From NCBI GenBank assembly GCA_003168215.1, contig PMSW01000101.1, positions 7,426 to 56,814 of the forward strand: 49,389 bases of DNA. Reading direction: 5' to 3'. Origin of the DNA: Actinomycetota bacterium. GTDB lineage: Bacteria > Actinomycetota > Actinomycetes > Streptosporangiales > Streptosporangiaceae. Below the pieces are notes generated by a model. It did no database searches and was not told the origin of the DNA. It worked only from the letters and a program-made list of their open reading frames with translations. Below, one piece after another: positions 1,280-13,561 of this stretch. The stretch's first letter is position 1; each line of letters starts with the position of its first letter. The position numbers and the translations under genes are program-made.

Positions 1280-2959
1280 ATGAGACGCCTTAAGGCAATC
1301 GGGGTCATCATCGGGGTCGCTGGCTTGCTGACGGCAGCGGCCGCCTGCGGGACCAGCTCGTCATCCGGGACCGGAACCAAGTCAGGCCCGGCCGCTGCCA
1401 GCGGCACCCTGACCATCTCCAACGAGTTCGGGTCCACCTGGACCTGCCAGTTCAACCCGTTCAACCCGAACGTCACCATCCTGCCGTTCGGCCCGGTCTA
1501 TGAGCCGCTGGTGTACATGGACAACCTGGAGAGCGGCAAGACCTCGCCCTGGCTGGCCACGTCATGGGCCTGGAGCGACAGCAACAAGGTCGTGACGTTC
1601 ACCATCCGCAAGGGCGTGACCTGGTCGGACGGCAAGCCGTTCACCGCCGCGGACGTCGTGTTCACCTTCAATGAGCTGAAGAAGTTCCCTGGACTCGACA
1701 TCCAGTCGGACTGGAACTTCCTGTCCAGCGTGGCGCAGAAGGACTCCGACCAGGTCGTGATGACCTTCAAGACGGCGGGCACAGCTGACTTCTACTACGC
1801 CGCCGACCAGACTCCCATCATTCCCGAGCACATCTGGGCCTCGGTCAAGAACCCGGTCACCTGGGGTGACGATAACCCGGTCGGCACCGGCGCCTACACG
1901 CTCGGCTCGTGCACGCCGGAGAACATCAAGTACGTCGCCAACAAGCACTACTACATGCCGGGCGAGCCCAAGATCGCCACGGTCAACTACCCCGCCTTCC
2001 TGTCCAACAACGCGGCCAACGAGGAACTCGCCGACGGCCAGGCTCAGTGGGGCAACCAGTTCATCCCGAGCATCCAGCAGGCTTACTCGGCCAAGAACCC
2101 GGCCAACAAGTACTGGTTCCCGCCGGTGGTCAACAACGACCTGTTCATCAACTTGAAGAAGCCGCTGCTGGACGAGCTGCCGGTGCGCCAGGCCATGGCG
2201 TACGCGATCGACAGGAGCAAGGTCTCCCAGATCGGCGAGTACGGCTACGAGCCGCCGGCCAACCAGACCGGCATCGTCACGCCGACGTTCACCAGCTGGC
2301 TGGACACCAAAGAGGCGGCGAAATACAACTACGACTACGACCCGGCCAGGGCAAGGCAGATCCTGCAGACGGCCGGCTTCAAGATGGGCAGCAACGGCAT
2401 CTTCCAGACCGCGTCCGGCACGCCGCTGTCGTTCACCGTGGTCAACATCGGCGACTACTCCGACTGGGTTGCCTCACTGCAGATCATCCAGCAGGAGTTC
2501 AAGGCCGCCGGCATCGGCCTGACGGTGGACAACATGTCGAGCAACGCTTATGACGCCGCCATGTTCGACGGCAACTACGAGCTCGGCTATAACACCGAGT
2601 CCGGCGGGCCTGGCCCCTATTACGAGCTGCGTCAGTGGCTGCTGTCGAGCAACTCGGCGCCCATCGGCCATACGGCCTCCACCAACTGGGAGCGCTACTC
2701 CAGCCCGGCCACCGACGCGCTGTTTGCCGAGTACCCGGCGGCCAGCCCGGCGCGGCAGCACCAGATCGTGGACCAGCTGCAGCAGGTCATGCTGAGCGAT
2801 GTGCCGCTGATCCCGGTCACCGAGGGAGTCGACTGGTATGAGTACAACACCGCCGACTTCAGCGGATGGCCGACGCAGAGTAACCCCTATTCACAGCCCG
2901 GGCCCGCGGTGACGCCCGACTTCGGCTGGACGCTGCTGCACCTGGCGCCTAAGGGCTGA
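1280..2959 (+). CDS. ABC transporter substrate-binding lipoprotein, family 5 (peptide/oligosaccharide type)
   Basis: Lipobox LLTAAAAC; typical SBP_bac_5 segments (YEPLVYMD, ATSWAWSDSNKVVTFTIRKGVTWSDGKPFTAADVVFTF). Confidence 0.9.
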   Translation: MRRLKAIGVIIGVAGLLTAAAACGTSSSSGTGTKSGPAAASGTLTISNEFGSTWTCQFNPFNPNVTILPFGPVYEPLVYMDNLESGKTSPWLATSWAWSDSNKVVTFTIRKGVTWSDGKPFTAADVVFTFNELKKFPGLDIQSDWNFLSSVAQKDSDQVVMTFKTAGTADFYYAADQTPIIPEHIWASVKNPVTWGDDNPVGTGAYTLGSCTPENIKYVANKHYYMPGEPKIATVNYPAFLSNNAANEELADGQAQWGNQFIPSIQQAYSAKNPANKYWFPPVVNNDLFINLKKPLLDELPVRQAMAYAIDRSKVSQIGEYGYEPPANQTGIVTPTFTSWLDTKEAAKYNYDYDPARARQILQTAGFKMGSNGIFQTASGTPLSFTVVNIGDYSDWVASLQIIQQEFKAAGIGLTVDNMSSNAYDAAMFDGNYELGYNTESGGPGPYYELRQWLLSSNSAPIGHTASTNWERYSSPATDALFAEYPAASPARQHQIVDQLQQVMLSDVPLIPVTEGVDWYEYNTADFSGWPTQSNPYSQPGPAVTPDFGWTLLHLAPKG

Positions 2960-3041
2960 CCGCCCCGGCGCGCACGCACTCGACAAACGGCACTCCGCAG
3001 GCTGACGGTAAGGGAGCGATGATGAGCACGAGGAGGAGAGC

Positions 3042-4022
3042 ATGAGATACGCGCTCCGCCGGCTTGGCTTCTTTGCCGTCACCCTGTGGGCCTGCCTCAC
3101 GCTCAACTTCGTGCTGCCGCGGCTGATGCCGGGCAGCCCGATCCTGGACATGATGGCCAAGTACCACGGGCGCCTGAATCCGAAGGCGCTGCAGGCCATC
3201 GAGGTCGCCTTCGGCATCCAGACCCACACCAGCCTGATCGTGCAGTACTTCCAGTACCTGGGTAACACCTTCACCGGCAACTTCGGCATGTCGCTGACCC
3301 AGACCGAGCCGGTCAGCCAGGTGATCGGCGGAGCCGTCTGGTGGACACTCGGGCTGATCGGCGTCACCACCATCCTGGCGTTCATACTCGGCACGCTGAT
3401 CGGCATCGTCGGCGCCTGGCGCCGCGGCGGCTGGCTCGACGGCATCCTGCCGCCGGTATTCGTGATCACCTCGTCGATCCCGTTCTTCTGGATCGGGATG
3501 CTGCTGATCCTGTTCGTCGGCAAGTTCTTCGTCCACTTCCCGCTCAGCGGCGCCTACTCCTACGGCGCAACCCCCGGGCTCAACTGGCCGTTCATCGTCG
3601 ACGTGCTGCAGCACGCGCTGCTGCCGGCGCTGGCCATCCTGATCACCTCGATCGGCGGCTGGATCCTGACCATGCGCAACACCATGGTGACCGTGCTGGC
3701 CGAGGACTACGTGCGGATGGCCAGGGCGAAAGGGCTGCCCGGCTGGCGGATCATGTTCGACTACGCGGCGCGCAACGCCATGCTGCCGAACCTGTCCGGC
3801 TTCGCCATGTCACTCGGGTTCGTGCTGTCCGGAGCGATCCTGGTGGAGTACCTCTTCTCCTACCAGGGCATCGGCTACTACCTGCTGCAGGCCGTGGACA
3901 ACCAGGACTACGCGCTGATGCAGGCCCTGTTCCTGCTGATCACCGTGGCCGTGCTGGTGGCGGTGCTGGCCGCCGACGTCCTCACCGCGCTCCTTGACCC
4001 GCGCACCAGGACGGGCAGCTAG
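3042..4022 (+). CDS. ABC transporter permease, DppB/OppB type
   Basis: MRYALRRLGFFAVTLWACLTLNFVLPRLMPGSP; multiple TM segments; EDYVRMARAKGLPGWRIMFDYAARNAMLP EAA motif. Confidence 0.93.
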   Translation: MRYALRRLGFFAVTLWACLTLNFVLPRLMPGSPILDMMAKYHGRLNPKALQAIEVAFGIQTHTSLIVQYFQYLGNTFTGNFGMSLTQTEPVSQVIGGAVWWTLGLIGVTTILAFILGTLIGIVGAWRRGGWLDGILPPVFVITSSIPFFWIGMLLILFVGKFFVHFPLSGAYSYGATPGLNWPFIVDVLQHALLPALAILITSIGGWILTMRNTMVTVLAEDYVRMARAKGLPGWRIMFDYAARNAMLPNLSGFAMSLGFVLSGAILVEYLFSYQGIGYYLLQAVDNQDYALMQALFLLITVAVLVAVLAADVLTALLDPRTRTGS

Positions 4023-4024
4023 CC

Positions 4025-5008
4025 GTGGCCACCATGCAGATCTCGGCCGGAGCCGGCCAGGCGGCGGACGGATCCCAGCCCGGCGGCCCGGCGAGGGCAA
4101 GCGAGCGCACGGCCGGGCGGGTCTGGCGCGCGGTGCGGACCAACAAGAAGGCCGCCGCCGGAGCCATCATCCTGGCCATCTTCGCGATCATGGCCCTGTT
4201 CCCCGGCCAGATCGCGCATGACAACCCGCGCGCCTTCGCCTACGGCCGCAGCCTGGGCCCGTCGCTACATCACCTGCTGGGCACGAACGCGCTGGGCCAG
4301 GACCTCTTCGCCCAGACCATCTGGGGCGCCAGGGAGACGCTGATCATCGCGCTGGCGTCCGGGGCGGCGTCCACCATCCTGTCGATGATCATGGGCATCG
4401 CCGCCGCCTACCTGGGCGGGCTGTGGGACCACGGGCTGAACCTGATCACCGACATCCTGCTGGTCATCCCCACGTTCCCGCTGCTGATCGTCATCCTGGC
4501 CTACCTCCCGCACGGCGGGCTCGTCCCGCTGATGGCAGTCCTGGTGATCACCGGGTACTCCTACGGAGCGCGCCAGCTGCGGGCCGAGGCGCTGTCGCTG
4601 CGCGGCCGCGACTTCCTGGAGGCAGCGCGCGTCCGCGGCGAGCGCAAGCCGTACATCATCTTCGTCGAGATCATCCCGTCTATGACCTCGCTGATCATGG
4701 CAGTGTTCCTCGGCACCGCCGTCTACAACGTGATCGCGGCGGCCTCGCTGCAGTTCATCGGCTTCGGTGACCCGAGCTCGCTGAGCTGGGGCACGATGCT
4801 CTACTGGGCGCAGAACGGTGAGGCCCTGCAGACCGGCCAGTACCTGTGGGCGATCGCGCCTGGCCTGTGCATCGCGCTGCTCGGTGCCGCCTTTGCCCTG
4901 CTCAACTACGCCTTCGACGAGATCGGCAACCCGGCACTGCAGCGGGTCGCCGCGCGCCGCAGCCGGTACACCGCACCCTGGAGGATCCGTGCGAAGCGCG
5001 CCAGCTGA
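4025..5008 (+). CDS. ABC transporter permease, DppC/OppC type
   Basis: LGTNALGQDLFAQTIWGARETLIIALASG; RDFLEAARVRGERKPYIIFVEIIPS. Confidence 0.93.
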   Translation: MATMQISAGAGQAADGSQPGGPARASERTAGRVWRAVRTNKKAAAGAIILAIFAIMALFPGQIAHDNPRAFAYGRSLGPSLHHLLGTNALGQDLFAQTIWGARETLIIALASGAASTILSMIMGIAAAYLGGLWDHGLNLITDILLVIPTFPLLIVILAYLPHGGLVPLMAVLVITGYSYGARQLRAEALSLRGRDFLEAARVRGERKPYIIFVEIIPSMTSLIMAVFLGTAVYNVIAAASLQFIGFGDPSSLSWGTMLYWAQNGEALQTGQYLWAIAPGLCIALLGAAFALLNYAFDEIGNPALQRVAARRSRYTAPWRIRAKRAS

Positions 5009-6038
5009 TCGCGTCCGCGAGCTCGCGGGCCCGGGCGTCCCCCTGGGCGTCCCCCCGGACGCCGGTGTTCCCGTCCTTCAGGTTGACGACCTTTCCGTCG
5101 CCTACCAGACGCGGCGCGGCGACGTCACCGCGGTCGATGGCGTCAGCTTCGACCTGGCCAGGGGCGAATTCCTCGGCATCGTCGGCGAGTCGGGCTGCGG
5201 CAAGTCGACGCTGCTGTTCGCGATCGCGCAGCTGCTCGCGCCGCCGGCCCAGGTCACCGGCGGCTGCGTGAGCTTCAAGGGCACCGACCTGACGGAGCTG
5301 ACCGAGCGGCAGCTCGCCGCGATCCGGTGGAAGGAGCTGTCGGTCGTCATGCAGAGCGCGATGAACGCGCTCAACCCGGTCAAGTCCGTCGGCTCGCAGT
5401 TCGCCGACGCGATGCGGGCACATGGCGTCAGCTCGAAGCGGGAGATCGCCCAGCGGTCAGCCGAGGTGCTGGCGATGGTCGGCATCGACGGCGCGCACCT
5501 GAAGAGCTATCCGCACCAGCTGTCCGGCGGAATGCGCCAGCGTTCCATGATCGCGATGGCCCTGCTCTTCACCCCTGACCTGGTGATCATGGACGAGCCG
5601 ACCTCCGCGCTCGACGTGGTCGCCCAGCGCTCGCTGATGGTCCAGATCAAGGAACTGCAGGCCGAGCTCGGCTTCGCGATCATCTTCGTCACCCACGACA
5701 TGTCGCTGGTCAGCCACTTCTCCGACCGGCTGATGGTGATGTACGCCGGCCAGGTCGCGGAATTCGGCCCCACCCGGCGGGTTTTCGACGCACCGCTGCA
5801 CCCCTACAGTGTCGGCTTGCTCGACGCGTTCCCGTCGATCAGGGGGCCGCAGGTGCCGCTGACCGGTATCCCCGGCAGCCCGCCGGACCTGGCGAAGCTG
5901 CCCGGCGGCTGCCGGTTCGCGCCGCGCTGCCAGAAGGTGATGCCCGCCTGCGAGACCACGGCGCCGCCGCTCTACCAGGTGGACGATATTCAGGTCCGCT
6001 GCCTGCTGCAGGCCGGCCGGGGGCCAGCCGGTGACTGA
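4989..6038 (+). CDS. ABC transporter ATP-binding protein, DppD/OppD type
   Basis: Walker A GESGCGKST, signature LSGGMRQR, C-terminal oligopeptide domain CRFAPRC; likely GTG start at 4989 rather than the longer ORF. Confidence 0.9.
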   Translation: MRSAPADRVRELAGPGVPLGVPPDAGVPVLQVDDLSVAYQTRRGDVTAVDGVSFDLARGEFLGIVGESGCGKSTLLFAIAQLLAPPAQVTGGCVSFKGTDLTELTERQLAAIRWKELSVVMQSAMNALNPVKSVGSQFADAMRAHGVSSKREIAQRSAEVLAMVGIDGAHLKSYPHQLSGGMRQRSMIAMALLFTPDLVIMDEPTSALDVVAQRSLMVQIKELQAELGFAIIFVTHDMSLVSHFSDRLMVMYAGQVAEFGPTRRVFDAPLHPYSVGLLDAFPSIRGPQVPLTGIPGSPPDLAKLPGGCRFAPRCQKVMPACETTAPPLYQVDDIQVRCLLQAGRGPAGD

Positions 6039-7077
6039 CCAGGCGCCAGACCAGGCAGCTGCGCGGGCGGCCGCCACCGCGACCGGGCCGCTGCTCCGGA
6101 CCGACGGGCTGACCAGGCACTTCCGCATCGGCGGCGGAATCTCCCGTAAGACCCTGCACGCGGTTGACGATGTCAGCCTCGCCATCGGAGAGCGCGAGAT
6201 CGTGGCGCTCGCTGGCGAGAGCGGCAGCGGCAAGAGCACGATCGCGCGCCTGCTGGCCCGGATCTACCAGCCGACCAGCGGCGAGATCTACTTCCAGGGC
6301 GAGCCACTGTCCGGCCTGCGCTCGCGCGAGCAGATGCTGCGGTACCGCAGCCTGGTGCCGATGGTCTTCCAGGACCCGTTCAGCTCGATCAACCCGGTCT
6401 TCCGGGTCTCGCACGGCATCCTGCGCGGCCTCAAGCTGCACCGGCCCGAGCTCAGCAAGCCGCAGCGCGCAGCGGAGGCCGCGCGCGTCTTCGAGACGGT
6501 CGGGCTGACCCCTGCGGCCGAGGTACTGCAGCGCTACCCGCACGAGCTGAGCGGCGGCCAGCGCCAGCGGGTCGGCTTCGCCCAGGCCCTCGCGCTGCGG
6601 CCGAAGCTGATCCTGGCCGACGAGCCGGTCTCCATGCTGGACGTCTCGATCCGGATCGGCCTGCTGAACCTGATGGCCGAGCTGCGCGACTCCCAGGGCG
6701 TGTCGATCCTGTACATCACCCACGACATCGCCAGCGCCCGCTACATCGCCGACCGCCTGATCGTGATGTACGCCGGGCAGATCGCCGAGGCCGGGCCCGT
6801 CGAGGACGTGCTCGCCAGCCCGCGGCACCCCTACACCCAGCTGCTGCTCTCCGCGGTACCCGACCCGCGCGCGCCGCTGAGCATCACCGCGGAGACCGAC
6901 CGCGGCGAGCCGCCGCGGGTAATCGACCCGGTGCCCGGCTGCCGGTTCCGCTGGCGCTGCCCGCTGGCGATCGACGAGTGCAGCCACGTCACGCCCCAGC
7001 TGCGGCAGCTGCTGCCCGACCACGACGCGGCCTGCCACGTGGCCAGGGCCGACGCGGGGATCAGGGCGTTCGGATGA
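6031..7077 (+). CDS. ABC transporter ATP-binding protein, DppF/OppF type
   Basis: GESGSGKSTIARLLARIYQPTSG, LSGGQRQRVGFAQALALRPKLILADEPVSMLDVS. Confidence 0.92.
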   Translation: MTDQAPDQAAARAAATATGPLLRTDGLTRHFRIGGGISRKTLHAVDDVSLAIGEREIVALAGESGSGKSTIARLLARIYQPTSGEIYFQGEPLSGLRSREQMLRYRSLVPMVFQDPFSSINPVFRVSHGILRGLKLHRPELSKPQRAAEAARVFETVGLTPAAEVLQRYPHELSGGQRQRVGFAQALALRPKLILADEPVSMLDVSIRIGLLNLMAELRDSQGVSILYITHDIASARYIADRLIVMYAGQIAEAGPVEDVLASPRHPYTQLLLSAVPDPRAPLSITAETDRGEPPRVIDPVPGCRFRWRCPLAIDECSHVTPQLRQLLPDHDAACHVARADAGIRAFG

Positions 7078-8339
7078 AGCTCGCGGTGATCGGCGGCGGG
7101 TCCACCTACACGCCCGAGCTCATCGACGGGATCGCCCGGCTGGCCGGCGACGTAAAGGTCACCGAGGTCACCCTGGTCGACCCCGACGAGGGCCGGCTGT
7201 CGGTCGTCGGCCCGGTCTCGGCGCGGATCATGCGCGCCTACGGGCATCCGGCAGCGCTCCGCTGGACCACCAGCCTGGACGACGGGCTGGACGGTGCCGG
7301 GGCGGTGCTGCTGCAGCTGCGGGTGGGCGGCCAGGCGGCCCGCCACCGCGACGAGACCTGGCCGCTGGAGTGCGGCTGCATCGGCCAGGAAACGACCGGG
7401 GCCGGCGGCCTGGCGAAAGCACTCCGCACCGTACCGGTGGTTCTTGACATTGCCGAACGAGCCAGGCGGCGCGGCGCCGAGGGCGCCTGGATCATCGACT
7501 TCACCAACCCGGTCGGGATCGTCACCCGGGCACTGCTCGACGGCGGGCACCGGGCCATCGGGTTGTGCAATGTCGCGATCGGCTTCCAGCGGCAGTTCGC
7601 CGCGCTACTCGGCGTCCCGCCGGGGCAGGTGCTGCTCGACCATGTCGGGCTCAATCACCTGACCTGGGAACGAGCCGCCGTGGTGGACGGCACCGACCGG
7701 CTGCCCGCCCTGATCGCCGCCCATGGCGCCCAGATCGCTGGGCACACTGGGCTGCCAGTATCCGTTATTCATGAAGTTGGCGCGGTTCCGTCCTATTACC
7801 TGCGCTATTTCTACGCGCACGACTCTGTCGTGGCGGCAGAGCGGGGCCGGCCGACGCGAGCGCAGGAAGTCGCCGGGATCGAGCGGCGGCTGCTGGAGAT
7901 GTACGCCGACCCCGCGCTTGACCGCAAGCCGGAGCTGCTCGGCGAGCGGGGCGGTGCCTTTTACTCGGAGGCGGCCGTGGCGCTGCTCGCCTCGCTGGCC
8001 GGCGACACCGGGGACACGCAGGTCGTGAACGTGCGGAACGCGGGCACGATGCCGTTCCTGCCCGACGACGCGGTGATCGAGGTGCCGGCCGTGATCACCG
8101 CCGGCGGCGCCGAGCCGGTCGGAGTTGCCCCGCTCAGCCCGCTGATGCGCGGGCTGGTCGCGCACGTGTCGGCGTACGAGGAGCTGGCGGTGGACGCCGC
8201 GCTGCGCGGCGGGCGGCACCGGGTGGCCATGGCGCTGCTCGCGCATCCGCTGGTCGGCCAGTTCGACCTGGCCTTCGGCCTCGCTGACCGGCTGATCGCG
8301 GAGAACAGCGGCTACCTGCCCTGGGCCACTGGCCGGTGA
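7074..8339 (+). CDS. Glycoside hydrolase family 4 (6-phospho-beta-glucosidase-like)
   Basis: MKLAVIGGGSTYTPELIDGIARL NAD motif; GLCNVAIGFQRQ and DHVGLNHLTW motifs; ATGA overlap with the upstream ATPase. Confidence 0.88.
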   Translation: MKLAVIGGGSTYTPELIDGIARLAGDVKVTEVTLVDPDEGRLSVVGPVSARIMRAYGHPAALRWTTSLDDGLDGAGAVLLQLRVGGQAARHRDETWPLECGCIGQETTGAGGLAKALRTVPVVLDIAERARRRGAEGAWIIDFTNPVGIVTRALLDGGHRAIGLCNVAIGFQRQFAALLGVPPGQVLLDHVGLNHLTWERAAVVDGTDRLPALIAAHGAQIAGHTGLPVSVIHEVGAVPSYYLRYFYAHDSVVAAERGRPTRAQEVAGIERRLLEMYADPALDRKPELLGERGGAFYSEAAVALLASLAGDTGDTQVVNVRNAGTMPFLPDDAVIEVPAVITAGGAEPVGVAPLSPLMRGLVAHVSAYEELAVDAALRGGRHRVAMALLAHPLVGQFDLAFGLADRLIAENSGYLPWATGR

Positions 8340-9481
8340 CTCAGGGCCGTGCCGCTGTCCTGGCCATCGACGGCGGGAACAGCAAGACCGACGTCGCGCT
8401 GGTCGCCGGGGACGGCGCCCTGCTGGCGGCCGTCCGCGGTCCGGGGTCGAACGCGCACATCATCGGGCTGGACCGGGCCATGTCGATCATCGCGGAGCTG
8501 GCCGCCGCGGCCGCGCGGCAGGCGGGCCTGGCAGCCGGCGGCGCCCCGGTGGCAGAGCACGTGTCCGCGTGCCTGGCCGGGGCCGATCTTGCCGAGGATG
8601 AAGAGCGGCTCGGCGCAGCGCTGCACGCGCAACGGCACGCGCTGACGTGCACTGTCGTCAATGACACGTTCGCCATCCTGCGCGCCGGGCTGGTGCCCGG
8701 GCTGATCGACACCGGCGCGGGCCGTGCAGCCGGCGGGCATGCAGCCGACGGGCGTGCAGCCAGCGGGCGGGCAGCCAGCGGGCGGGCAGCCAGCGGGCGG
8801 GCAGCCAGCGGGCGGGCAGCCGGCGAGGGCGGTGCCCGGGTCCGGCACTGGGGCGTGGCCGTGACCTGCGGCGCCGGAATCAACTGCGTCGCGGTGGCAC
8901 CGGACGGGCGCGAGGCCAGGTTTCCCGCTCTCGGCGAGGTAACCGGTGACTGGGGCGGCGGGGAGGGACTCGGCCGGGAGGCCCTCTGGTGGGCGGTCCG
9001 GGATGAGGACGGCCGCGGGCCGCAGACGATGCTCCGCGACGCGGTGGCAGCCCATTTCGGCGTGCCGACGGCGAGCGACGTCGGCATCGGCATCCATTAC
9101 GGCAAGATTCCCGCTGACGAGCTGCTGGGGCTGGCGCCGGTGCTGCTGCGCACCGCAGCCCGCGGCGATGAGGTGGCGCGCAAGGTAGTCGCGCGGCTGG
9201 CCGACGAGATCGTGACGATGGCGGTCGCGATGATCCGCCGTCTTGGCCTGACCGGGCACGCCGTGCCGGTCATACTCGGCGGCGGCATGCTGACCGCGCG
9301 GGATCCGATGCTGACGGACGGCATCGCGGCCGGACTGACGGCCCGCGCCCCGGGGGCGTTCCTGCACATTGTGGATGTCCCCGCGGTTGCCGGGGCAGCG
9401 CTGCTCGGGCTGGATCACGTCAGGGCGCCGGTCACCGCCGAGGAGCGGCTGCGCGCGGCCTACCTGAGCCAAGAGACCTGA
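8336..9481 (+). CDS. BadF/BadG/BcrA/BcrD-type ATPase, N-acetylglucosamine kinase-like
   Basis: LAIDGGNSKTDVALV; VTCGAGINCVAVAPDGR; GDWGGGEGLGREAL; GTG start overlapping the upstream stop. Confidence 0.83.
   Translation: MTQGRAAVLAIDGGNSKTDVALVAGDGALLAAVRGPGSNAHIIGLDRAMSIIAELAAAAARQAGLAAGGAPVAEHVSACLAGADLAEDEERLGAALHAQRHALTCTVVNDTFAILRAGLVPGLIDTGAGRAAGGHAADGRAASGRAASGRAASGRAASGRAAGEGGARVRHWGVAVTCGAGINCVAVAPDGREARFPALGEVTGDWGGGEGLGREALWWAVRDEDGRGPQTMLRDAVAAHFGVPTASDVGIGIHYGKIPADELLGLAPVLLRTAARGDEVARKVVARLADEIVTMAVAMIRRLGLTGHAVPVILGGGMLTARDPMLTDGIAAGLTARAPGAFLHIVDVPAVAGAALLGLDHVRAPVTAEERLRAAYLSQET
8726..8830 (+). repeat. In-frame 15-bp tandem repeat (about 7 units, 4 identical)
   Basis: GCAGCCAGCGGGCGG repeated at 8756-8815, degenerate units on both sides; encodes AASGR repeats. 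Confidence 0.95.
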
Positions 9482-9569: not shown

Positions 9570-9625
9570 GTGGTGAATCCGGGGACCGATCACCTCCGAA
9601 CGTGCTCGGTCGCCGGATTCACCAC
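9570..9625. terminator. Long stem-loop downstream of the ABC/GH4 operon
   Basis: GTGGTGAATCCGG (9570-9582) / CCGGATTCACCAC (9613-9625), then GACCGA (9584-9589) / TCGGTC (9606-9611): 19 paired bp with one mismatch. Confidence 0.6.
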
Positions 9626-9807: not shown

Positions 9808-10560
9808 ATGATCAGTCGATTGCCGCTGCACGCGGGCGCGGTGCCGGCGGCCGAGGGGTCCGGGCTGGCGGTGACCCGGGTCGGCGTCGTCATCCCGGCG
9901 CACGATGAGGAAGTCCTGCTGCCGGCCTGCCTGTCGGCGCTGGGCGCTGCCGCCGCGCGGGCCGGGGTGCCGGTGTCGGTGGTGGTTGTCCTGGACGCGT
10001 GCACGGACGGCACGCTGGAGGCCGTGCGCGGGGCTGACCCGGCTCCCTTCGACCGGCTGGAGCACATCGCGTGCCAGACGCGCAGAGTCGGCGCGGCGCG
10101 CGCGGCGGGCAGCCGGCACCTGATCGGCGCGCACGATCCGGCGGGACTGTGGCTGGCCACCACCGACGCCGACTCCACCGTCCCGCCCGACTGGATCGCC
10201 CGGCAGCTCGCGCACGTCAGGCGTGGCGCGCGCGCCGTGATCGGCACGGTCGAGGTTGCTGACTGGTCGCAGCATCCGCCGCAGGTCGAGCCGCGCTACC
10301 GCAGGCTGTACCGGGCGCGCGATGGCCACCGGCACGTGCACGGCGCCAACATGTCGATGGCCGCGACCGCCTACCTCGCGGCCGGCGGCTTCCCTGCGGT
10401 GGCCGCCGAGGAGGACGTCGCGATGATCGAGCGGCTGACCGCGCTGCGCGAGCCGGTTGTCTGGGCAGCGGATCTTCCCGTGACCACCAGCGCCCGGCTG
10501 CACGGCCGGGCCGCCGGCGGCTTCGCCGGTTACCTCGCTCAGCTGGCCAGCGGATCGTGA
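9808..10560 (+). CDS. Glycosyltransferase family 2
   Basis: VGVVIPAHDEEVLLPACLSAL; TTDADSTVPPDW. Confidence 0.85.
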   Translation: MISRLPLHAGAVPAAEGSGLAVTRVGVVIPAHDEEVLLPACLSALGAAAARAGVPVSVVVVLDACTDGTLEAVRGADPAPFDRLEHIACQTRRVGAARAAGSRHLIGAHDPAGLWLATTDADSTVPPDWIARQLAHVRRGARAVIGTVEVADWSQHPPQVEPRYRRLYRARDGHRHVHGANMSMAATAYLAAGGFPAVAAEEDVAMIERLTALREPVVWAADLPVTTSARLHGRAAGGFAGYLAQLASGS

Positions 10561-11603
10561 AGCAGCCAGCGGACCTGTCGCGCAGCCTCGGCCAGCTGCT
10601 GGCCGCGGGATCAGGCCGCCTGCCGCTGCCAGGGAGCGGGGAGACCTTGCGGCGATGGCAGGCGCTGGCCGATGTCGCCGCCCGCGACCTCGCGCTGGCA
10701 AAGCTATTCGAAGGCCATACCGATGCGCTGGCGATCATGGCCGAGCTGGGCGCCGCGGAGGTGGATCCTGCGTCAGTCTGGGGTACCTGGGCAGCCGAGC
10801 CGCCGTCGGCGCGCCTTGAGCTCAAGCGTTCCGCTCAGGGAGCGCGCCTGACCGGCCGCAAGGCATGGTGCTCCGGCGCGGAGATCGTCAGTCACGCGGT
10901 GCTCACTGCCTGGGACGACCAGGGCGCGCAGTGCCTGGCCGCAGTCGCGATCGGCCAGCCGGGGGTAACGGTGACAACCGACGGCTGGCACGCCGTCGGC
11001 ATGGGCCGTGCCGCTAGCGGGGACGTTCTCTTCGATGCCGCTGCGGCTGTCGAGATCGGAGAACCCGGCCAGTACACCGCCCGGCCCGGTTTCTGGCAGG
11101 GCGGCTGCGGGATCGCCGCGTGCTGGTACGGCGGCGCGGTCCCCTTCGCCGATGCGGTCGCGGATCTGCTGCGCCGCCGCGACGACCCGCATGCGGCGGC
11201 GCATCTCGGCGCGATCGACGCGGCACTGGCAGCGGCCCGCGCCTTGCTGACCGAAACGGCGGCCTGGATCGACGCGAACCCGGCCGCCCCGGCGCGGATT
11301 CAGGCACTGCGATCGCGGGCCGCCGTCGAGGAAACAGTCGGCACCGTGCTGTCGCATGCTGGCCGCGCGCTCGGAGCCGGCCCGCTGTGCCGGGACGTGG
11401 CGCTCGCGCAGCGCTTCGCCGACCTGCCGGTCTTTGTCCGGCAGAGCCATGCAGAACGTGACCTGGCGGAGCTTGGCCGCGGGCTGAGTAACGCCAATGG
11501 GCCGAGTGACGCTAGTGGGCTGAGTGACGGCGACGGGCTGAGTGACGGCGACGGGCTGAGTGACGACGACGGTGAGCGCAGCGGGCACGGGTGGCGGCTG
11601 TGA
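10557..11603 (+). CDS. Acyl-CoA dehydrogenase-like protein
   Basis: GEFA-like middle domain LTGRKAWCSGAEIVSHAVLTA; overall acyl-CoA dehydrogenase layout; ATGA-type overlap with GT2. Confidence 0.7.
   Translation: MKQPADLSRSLGQLLAAGSGRLPLPGSGETLRRWQALADVAARDLALAKLFEGHTDALAIMAELGAAEVDPASVWGTWAAEPPSARLELKRSAQGARLTGRKAWCSGAEIVSHAVLTAWDDQGAQCLAAVAIGQPGVTVTTDGWHAVGMGRAASGDVLFDAAAAVEIGEPGQYTARPGFWQGGCGIAACWYGGAVPFADAVADLLRRRDDPHAAAHLGAIDAALAAARALLTETAAWIDANPAAPARIQALRSRAAVEETVGTVLSHAGRALGAGPLCRDVALAQRFADLPVFVRQSHAERDLAELGRGLSNANGPSDASGLSDGDGLSDGDGLSDDDGERSGHGWRL
11481..11570 (+). repeat. In-frame 18-bp tandem repeat (5 units) at the 3' end of the ACAD-like gene
   Basis: GGGCTGAGTGACGGCGAC and variants; encodes GLSDGD-type hexapeptides. 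Confidence 0.95.
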
Positions 11604-12394
11604 GCGCGGCGGCAGCCGGCTTCCCGGATCCGGGCACGCCGGAGGATCGGGTCATCGCCGGGCAGGGTACGACGGCAGCGCAGTGGCGGGCCTGGATGGG
11701 CTGGCCTGGCCTGCAGGCTGCCACCGTCGATGAGCTCGTGCCGGCCGGGCACCGGCTGGTCGTCGTGGCACCGCACCCCGATGATGAAGTGCTCGGATCC
11801 GGCGGGCTGCTCGCCGGAACCGCGCACGCAGGCCGTGAGCAGCTGCTCGTGGCCGTCACCGACGGCCAGGGCAGCCACCCTGGCTCACTGCGCTGGCCGG
11901 AGAAGGAGCTAGGGGCGCAACGCCGCCGGGAGACCGCCGCGGCGCTGCGCGTGCTGGGCGCGGAGGCGTGCACCGTAGTCAGGATCGGCATCGATGACGG
12001 CAGTATCGCCGCCGCCAGGGCCGAGCTCGCCGACGCGCTGGCCGCGGTGGTCAGGCCAGCCGACGTGGTCGTCTCGCCGTGGCGATTCGACGGGCACCCT
12101 GATCATGAGGCAGTCGGGCAGACCGCGGCGGCGGTGATCGCGCAGGTGAACGGCGCCAGTCACCTCGAGGCGCCGATCTGGGCCTGGCACTGGGCCGTGC
12201 CTGGTGACCGCCGGATGCCATGGCAGCGGGCTGCGGTGCTGCACCTCGGACCGTTCCTGGCGTGGCGCAAGGGCGGAGCGGCGCGGTGTTTCACCAGCCA
12301 GCTTGAGCCCGACCCGTCGACAGGCGCGGACGCCATCCTGCCGCCATCGGTGGTGGCCCGCCTGGTGCACTCGCGGGAGGTGTTCTTCCGGTGA
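11591..12394 (+). CDS. PIG-L family deacetylase (LmbE-like)
   Basis: VVVAPHPDDEVLGSGG; DGHPDHEAVG; overlaps the preceding gene. Confidence 0.9.
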   Translation: MAAVSAAAAGFPDPGTPEDRVIAGQGTTAAQWRAWMGWPGLQAATVDELVPAGHRLVVVAPHPDDEVLGSGGLLAGTAHAGREQLLVAVTDGQGSHPGSLRWPEKELGAQRRRETAAALRVLGAEACTVVRIGIDDGSIAAARAELADALAAVVRPADVVVSPWRFDGHPDHEAVGQTAAAVIAQVNGASHLEAPIWAWHWAVPGDRRMPWQRAAVLHLGPFLAWRKGGAARCFTSQLEPDPSTGADAILPPSVVARLVHSREVFFR

Positions 12395-12999
12395 CCGAGC
12401 CGGCCGACCTCGCCTATCTGAGCGCGCTCTACGCTCAGGATCGCGATCCCTGGCATCTTCGTGATGGCTGGTACGAACGCCGCAAGCTCCAGCTGCTGCT
12501 CGCCTGCCTGCCGAGGGAGAGGTATGCCGCGGCATTCGAGCCAGGCTGCTCGGTGGGCGAGGTCACCGCGCGGCTCGCCGAACGGTGCGACCGCGTCCTG
12601 GCGGCGGATTTTCACGCTGATGCGGTGGCCGCGGCCAGGCAGCGCACCGCCGGCTCGCCCCATGTCGAGGTCCGGCAGCTCATCCTCCCCCGGCAATGGC
12701 CGCCGGGCACCCGCTTCGACCTGATCGTGCTCAGCGAGATCGGCTACTTCCAGTCCGCCGCCGCGTGGGCGGAGCTGTGCGGACTGGCCGCTGGCAGCCT
12801 GGCGGGGGAGGCGACGGTACTGGCATGCCACTGGCGCCGGGACTTCGCCGAGCGGACGCTGCCCACCGATGCGCTGCATGCCCAGCTCGGCGATGCGCTC
12901 AGAATCCCCAAGCACACCAGCGTCACGGATGCCGACTTCGTGATCGACGTATGGACGGCAAGCTCCCGCAGCGTCGCCCAGGCCGACGGCCTGGCCTAA
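12391..12999 (+). CDS. NodS-like class I SAM-dependent methyltransferase
   Basis: DPWHLRDGWYERRK; AFEPGCSVGEVTARLAERCDRVLAADF; ATGA-type overlap with the PIG-L gene. Confidence 0.85.
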   Translation: MTEPADLAYLSALYAQDRDPWHLRDGWYERRKLQLLLACLPRERYAAAFEPGCSVGEVTARLAERCDRVLAADFHADAVAAARQRTAGSPHVEVRQLILPRQWPPGTRFDLIVLSEIGYFQSAAAWAELCGLAAGSLAGEATVLACHWRRDFAERTLPTDALHAQLGDALRIPKHTSVTDADFVIDVWTASSRSVAQADGLA

Positions 13000-13093: not shown

Positions 13094-13561
13094 GTGATCA
13101 GCCGGCGGCAAGTAGGCCCGACCGTGCTGGTCCGCCTGGAGCGCGCAAACGCGGCCGGGCAGCTAGTTGCCCGCCTGGGCCGCCTGCGAATCCAGGTGAT
13201 CGAGGAGATGCGCGGACTCGCCCGCGATCTTGATCCGCAGCCGCTCAGCATGGTTTTGTTCGGATCGCTGGCGCGCGGGGACGCCGGCGCCGCGAGCGAC
13301 ATTGACATTCTCGCCGTCCGCCCGGCCGGCGGCGGCGAGCGCTGGGCCGCGGGCCCGACCGGGTTTTCGTCAAAAACGCAGGTTCTTACCGGGAATCGCG
13401 TCCAGATCCTCGACTACGACCTCCCCGACCTGCAGCAACGGTATGCGGCCCAAGGCGATGCCGCTGGCGCCAGGTGCTGGCAGTCGGTTGCCGGGGATGC
13501 CCTGACCCTGGCAGGCGCCGACCTGCAGGAGCTGATGGAGGCCGGCCGTGCCGCGCGGTAG
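13094..13561 (+). CDS. Nucleotidyltransferase-domain protein, probably 5'-truncated (partial winged-helix N-terminus)
   Basis: LFGSLARGDAGAASDIDILAVRP (GSxARG...SDIDIL); N-terminal VISRRQVGPTVLVRLERANAAGQL resembles the second half of a wHTH. Confidence 0.65.
   Translation: MISRRQVGPTVLVRLERANAAGQLVARLGRLRIQVIEEMRGLARDLDPQPLSMVLFGSLARGDAGAASDIDILAVRPAGGGERWAAGPTGFSSKTQVLTGNRVQILDYDLPDLQQRYAAQGDAAGARCWQSVAGDALTLAGADLQELMEAGRAAR

Follow-up and report, generated by a model that had tools for sequence, protein, structure and literature searches.

The window (the whole stretch of DNA that was analyzed, 49,389 nucleotides long, from an actinobacterial assembly of 4.65 Mb in 176 contigs) contains a cassette of four consecutive plus-strand genes at positions 9808 to 12999, exactly where the original prediction had placed them. 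The genes encode a GT2 glycosyltransferase of 250 amino acids (9808 to 10560), an ACAD-fold flavoprotein of 348 amino acids that is probably a flavin monooxygenase-type oxidase (10557 to 11603), a PIG-L family zinc de-N-acetylase of 267 amino acids (11591 to 12394), and a NodS-like class I SAM methyltransferase of 202 amino acids (12391 to 12999). The first and third overlaps between the open reading frames are 4 bp each (GTGA in both cases), and the second is 13 bp. The proposal that all four genes overlap their neighbors therefore holds for the internal junctions but not for the outer flanks, where 326 bp separate the cassette from the end of the upstream gene (9481) and 94 bp from the next open reading frame, which starts at 13094. 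Third-position GC contents of 0.81 to 0.90 were as expected for real genes here. The host genome contains seven PIG-L genes, and the cassette-type methyltransferase and flavoprotein were each found once.

The leader region of the cassette carries a near-perfect 54-bp palindrome (9571 to 9624, no strand assigned) with an RNA fold z score of -6.0. The palindrome recurs at about 20 places in the host genome, six of them with exact 12-nt arms and the identical 54-bp length. It is probably a REP/MITE-like dispersed repeat rather than a cassette-specific element, which ruled it out as an operator of the cassette. A RAYT transposase was also discarded as its partner, as PF01797 was absent from this incomplete assembly.

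The family calls for the glycosyltransferase, the deacetylase, and the methyltransferase held, with Pfam cut-offs passed or the domain matched. The glycosyltransferase matched the GT2 family PF00535 with 54.6 bits; its TDAD motif (DxD type) was invariant in the alignment, which also contained an HxHGAN motif, and its structural model (pLDDT of 70) matched soluble GT-A enzymes, many of them GT2. The PIG-L protein scored 92.9 bits against PF02585 (cut-off, 28.2) and contains the metal motifs HPDDE and HPDHE, of which H62-P-D-D-E66 and H169-P-D-H172 were invariant. Its profile retrieved deacetylases of the GlcNAc type from the PDB, namely, TT1542, diacetylchitobiose deacetylase, BshB, MshB, and teicoplanin deacetylase. 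The methyltransferase passed the Pfam NodS model PF05401 (44.9 bits; cut-off, 24) and remained below the cut-off of 300 of the NCBIfam NodS model (52.3 bits; homologs, 75 and 52 bits). In the PDB, its profile matched 4isc, an uncharacterized "Methyltransferase," with 225 bits, followed by NodS (3ofj) with 98 bits and a plant phospho(methyl)ethanolamine N-methyltransferase with 61 bits. This makes NodS (3ofj/3ofk) the best characterized relative. None of the four window proteins reached the cut-off of a named NCBIfam family, and the equivalog cut-offs were also missed by two sets of Acinetobacter homologs (L012 and L117). Hydropathy analysis revealed no membrane helix in any of the four proteins.

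The second protein had been described as a flavin-type dehydrogenase, and this assignment had to be corrected. Among the Pfam ACAD domains, only the middle domain was matched, at 26.2 bits and thus below its cut-off of 33.3. PDB matches of the flavoprotein profile were led by DszC/TdsC, XiaF (entries 5gj7 and 5z8t, which we take to represent this enzyme), MsuC, and a nitrososynthase, with some acyl-CoA dehydrogenases intermixed. The best fold matches of the structural model were DnmZ, KijD3, TdsC, and MsuC, a ranking that is only indicative because the model is weak (pLDDT of 53). His54, which aligns with the His of the DszC "GYH" motif, was invariant in 64/64 aligned homologs, and Ser106, which lines up with the DszC CSGA motif, was mostly kept; both positions presumably correspond to active-site residues of DszC. 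R254 and D289 were likewise invariant, as was D56 in strong homologs. Taken together, the profile and fold matches, the invariant His54, and the mostly retained serine make a monooxygenase-type enzyme more probable for this flavoprotein than a β-oxidation dehydrogenase.

XiaF, DszC, and KijD3 have been grouped as two-component monooxygenases (PMC5481743). The cassette flavoproteins differ from DszC/TdsC, XiaF, and MsuC in length (about 310 to 350 versus about 400 amino acids) and gene context, and the main cassette contains no flavin reductase gene as a partner; only a variant described below has an extra FAD oxidoreductase. The nitrososynthases KijD3, DnmZ, and ORF36, which are ACAD-fold flavin N-oxygenases, share the fold class, and an amino-sugar substrate like theirs would be fitting here, but the sequence similarity is remote (about 20% identity, 22 to 34 bits), and they are linked to dTDP-deoxysugar genes, whereas the cassette flavoprotein is linked to a glycosyltransferase, a deacetylase, and a methyltransferase. 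SfnB and MsuC were among the closest named models, which could point to a catabolic or detoxifying unit whose flavoprotein desulfurizes or oxidizes an external compound while the other enzymes process the conjugate. We consider such a unit very unlikely, since the match to the SfnB equivalog of NCBIfam reached 50.9 bits, far below the cut-off of 430.9, the combination of a glycosyltransferase with a methyltransferase follows a biosynthetic logic, and neither sulfur nor uptake genes recurred near the surveyed cassettes.

For a survey of other genomes, loci were selected with a profile of the flavoprotein alone, without regard to the other three genes. Matches were obtained in 32 of 297 sampled Actinomycetota genomes, in 14 of 101 sampled genomes of the window's own family, and in 32 of 399 sampled genomes of Pseudomonadota, the phylum of an Achromobacter genome. 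Taking both phyla together, 36 of the 43 strong loci had the complete set on a single strand in a span of 5 kb. Junctions between genes were tight across the surveyed loci, with 107 of 118 measuring 30 bp or less. The order flavoprotein–PIG-L–methyltransferase–glycosyltransferase was the most common among the 36 complete loci (n = 29), followed by that of the window, with the glycosyltransferase first (n = 3); four further orders (glycosyltransferase–PIG-L–flavoprotein–methyltransferase, flavoprotein–methyltransferase–PIG-L–glycosyltransferase, glycosyltransferase–methyltransferase–PIG-L–flavoprotein, and flavoprotein–glycosyltransferase–PIG-L–methyltransferase) occurred once each. That the set was retained despite such rearrangement is strong evidence of joint function. 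Varying gene order and nonconserved flanks could also be put down to unrelated genes that merely lie side by side. This explanation has practically no credibility left in view of the complete sets, the tight junctions, and the correlated pairwise distances of the four families (Spearman coefficients of 0.48 to 0.71), and the survey refuted chance adjacency. Judged from the sequences, the four genes are one functional unit, probably a transferable biosynthetic one, as the high share of complete sets and short junctions supports, and the suggestion of similar neighborhoods in other bacteria was borne out in Actinomycetota and Pseudomonadota.

Plasmid-borne copies were found in Acinetobacter ursingii, Kitasatospora, Pandoraea, Comamonas, Sulfitobacter, Paracoccus, Legionella lytica, Sphingomonas, and Deinococcus gobiensis, the last of these being a related cassette. 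The Deinococcus flavoprotein (5582 to 7930 of its locus, L155) is extended at its N terminus by about 400 residues that match no Pfam family. When the four proteins were concatenated for a tree, Actinomycetota and Pseudomonadota copies were split with an SH-aLRT support of 99%. The window copy grouped on the Pseudomonadota side and not with the copies found in its own family, with a lower support (92) for its place relative to all Pseudomonadota copies. An ancient horizontal transfer is the simplest reading of this tree; the composition of the cassette is native, so the transfer is not recent.

Several loci deviated in their deacetylase. The PIG-L gene was missing from the cassette in three loci (L008, L115, and L125), where the deacetylase may come from elsewhere. 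In all eight variant actinobacterial loci (L073, L138, L139, L140, L148, L149, L150, and L156, a Rubrobacter plasmid), the cassette lacked PIG-L and instead had a polysaccharide deacetylase gene of PF01522, the family of NodB, directly upstream of the flavoprotein gene. The variant loci except L138 also had a Pyr_redox_2 FAD oxidoreductase gene between the methyltransferase and glycosyltransferase genes; L138 is cut off by a contig end and L139 before the glycosyltransferase gene. Two unrelated deacetylase folds in the same slot indicate that de-N-acetylation is the conserved step. In another locus (L067), the PIG-L and methyltransferase regions were found in one uninterrupted open frame. As separate observations, the PIG-L gene of the Trebonia kvetii cassette (L009, 9241 to 9992) is split over two frames, reflecting a frameshift or an assembly error, and a 546-aa protein without a Pfam match is encoded directly after the glycosyltransferase gene on the Rubrobacter plasmid (10695 to 12335). 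In three Pseudomonadota loci that also contain treY/treZ (L111, L113, and L114), the cassette is followed closely by another PIG-L gene of diverged sequence, which suggests a second deacylation.

Based on the enzyme families, their near-obligate linkage, the exchange of the deacetylase family, and the single PIG-L/methyltransferase open frame, we propose that the cassette directs the biosynthesis of a small cytosolic or soluble, N-methylated and oxidized amino-sugar glycoside (probability of roughly 0.55). The soluble GT2 enzyme would first move an N-acetyl-hexosamine from a nucleotide sugar onto an acceptor. PIG-L, or the NodB-family deacetylase in the variant, would then strip the acetyl group, and the NodS-like enzyme would methylate the freed amine. 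Finally, the ACAD-fold flavoprotein may oxygenate either this product or the amino sugar in its free form, similarly to amino-sugar nitrososynthases. The choice of donor and acceptor, the sequence of the steps, methylation on nitrogen, and oxygenation in place of dehydrogenation are inferred parts of the proposal. Deacetylation followed by N-methylation, reminiscent of Nod-factor synthesis, had been predicted from the window, and the relationship to NodS, the swap to a NodB-family enzyme in eight loci, and the shared frame in L067 agree well with it. It had further been suggested that no product of such a cassette is characterized, and we found none in the open-access literature searched.

The prediction of a modified amino sugar or lipo-glycan was sustained only in its first half. 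The amino-sugar chemistry is supported; for a lipo-glycan, the cassette offers no membrane helix, acyltransferase, or lipid-carrier gene, and this product was rejected, although the lack of membrane helices by itself argues only weakly against lipo-glycan assembly. A broader form of this idea is that the cassette decorates a surface glycan or glycolipid, with an amino sugar placed on a lipid-linked or surface acceptor and then deacetylated and methylated. In its favor, GT2, deacetylase, and N-methyltransferase enzymes are typically involved in surface-glycan synthesis, a GT2 enzyme can act at the membrane face even when soluble, and the glycosyltransferase weakly matches EpsD. We nevertheless regard surface decoration as unlikely, because flippase, polymerase, and polyprenyl-phosphate genes are missing from the cassette as well and no surface-polysaccharide genes recurred in its neighborhood. 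The mycothiol and bacillithiol pathways (MshA/MshB and BshA/BshB) resemble the cassette in that a PIG-L enzyme deacetylates a GlcNAc glycoside after a glycosyltransferase has acted. They differ from it in that the cassette enzyme is of the GT2 rather than the GT4 type and a cysteine ligase is lacking; both pathways were rejected, with models below cut-off and BshB models well below it (47.1 bits for the window protein against the NCBIfam equivalog cut-off of 182.5).

A bioactive secondary metabolite, such as an antibiotic-like amino sugar with an oxidized nitrogen, or a signal would also be compatible with several observations: amino sugars of antibiotics are substrates of ACAD-fold nitrososynthases (fold matches to 4zxv, 4kcf, and 3mxl), the cassette has spread horizontally and onto plasmids, and an MFS transporter gene is found near some copies. 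This possibility appears quite improbable to us, given that resistance, regulator, or scaffold genes did not recur near the surveyed cassettes and that, unlike most antibiotic clusters, the cassette is kept over three phyla and has trehalose neighbors in Pseudomonadota. An anti-phage defense function was dismissed after a search yielded one weak methyltransferase-domain match (mad2) and otherwise weak matches to a neighboring nucleotidyltransferase only.

The sugar trehalose protects cells from desiccation and salt. Genes for the synthesis of trehalose (OtsA/B or TreY/Z) or sucrose (SPS-SPP) were located within about 8 kb of the cassette in 10 of 27 Pseudomonadota loci, compared to 0 of 40 control regions taken from ten of the same genomes, where one TreZ match at 26% identity was counted as generic GH13 and not as a trehalose gene. 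The difference was significant (Fisher P = 3e-5, or 2e-4 once near relatives were collapsed), although these values are optimistic since the genes were picked after the neighborhoods had been viewed. The linkage nevertheless extends over diverse lineages. In Comamonas, the cassette sits between otsA and otsB; it adjoins otsAB in Acinetobacter, treZ in Paracoccus, and otsB together with a GH65 enzyme gene in Legionella. The linkage was absent in the Actinomycetota loci, including the window. Two other candidate linkages were discarded: that to catalase stood out at first in a number of loci on plasmids and in genomes but was about as frequent in controls (P = 0.46), and that to a betaine ABC transporter consisted of generic ABC matches that were present in controls too.

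In Acinetobacter baumannii and Acinetobacter nosocomialis, genes of the same four families precede blsA/anbluf65, which encodes a BLUF photoreceptor, and were drawn without an assigned function (PMC9020721, Fig. 3). Sequence homologs of the cassette were confirmed in A. baumannii (L151). The window copy differs from this Acinetobacter copy in that it begins with the glycosyltransferase gene and that we observed no adjacent BLUF gene. Upstream of the window copy (1280 to 9481), we observed an apparent operon for a family-5 solute-binding protein, ABC permeases and ATPases, a GH4 glycosidase, and a BadF/NagK-like kinase. This oligopeptide-type ABC system perhaps serves the uptake of amino-sugar oligosaccharides. 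Its genes are not conserved beside other cassette copies, and as no conserved Actinomycetota neighbors were found, they were left outside the system.

Judging from the trehalose/sucrose linkage, Pseudomonadota probably synthesize the product alongside these sugars in response to water or osmotic stress, and it is possibly a stress protectant. Extending the proposal of a soluble amino-sugar glycoside, we tentatively raise the rather doubtful possibility of a new compatible-solute or desiccation-protectant class, an N-methylated (possibly quaternary), oxidized amino-sugar glycoside that has spread horizontally in Pseudomonadota, Actinomycetota, and Deinococcota and is deployed beside trehalose or sucrose.

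The four-enzyme pathway is carried by several percent of the sampled species in two large phyla, and its carriers include Acinetobacter baumannii and mobilizable Acinetobacter plasmids. If the product is a stress protectant, bacterial compatible solutes, which are few in kind, would gain a new chemical class, and the position of the cassette beside trehalose genes could be explained. One of the closest parallels is the nodC-nodB-nodS set of rhizobia, whose genes likewise bring together a GT2 enzyme, an N-deacetylase, and a NodS-type methyltransferase, the variant cassette even using a deacetylase of NodB's own family. In contrast to NodC, a membrane chitin synthase, the cassette glycosyltransferase is short and soluble; the nodA acyltransferase is missing, an ACAD-fold flavoprotein is added, and the methyltransferase scores 52 bits where the NodS cut-off is 300. 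The reuse of Nod-factor chemistry, deacetylation and then N-methylation, outside symbiosis would likewise be of interest.
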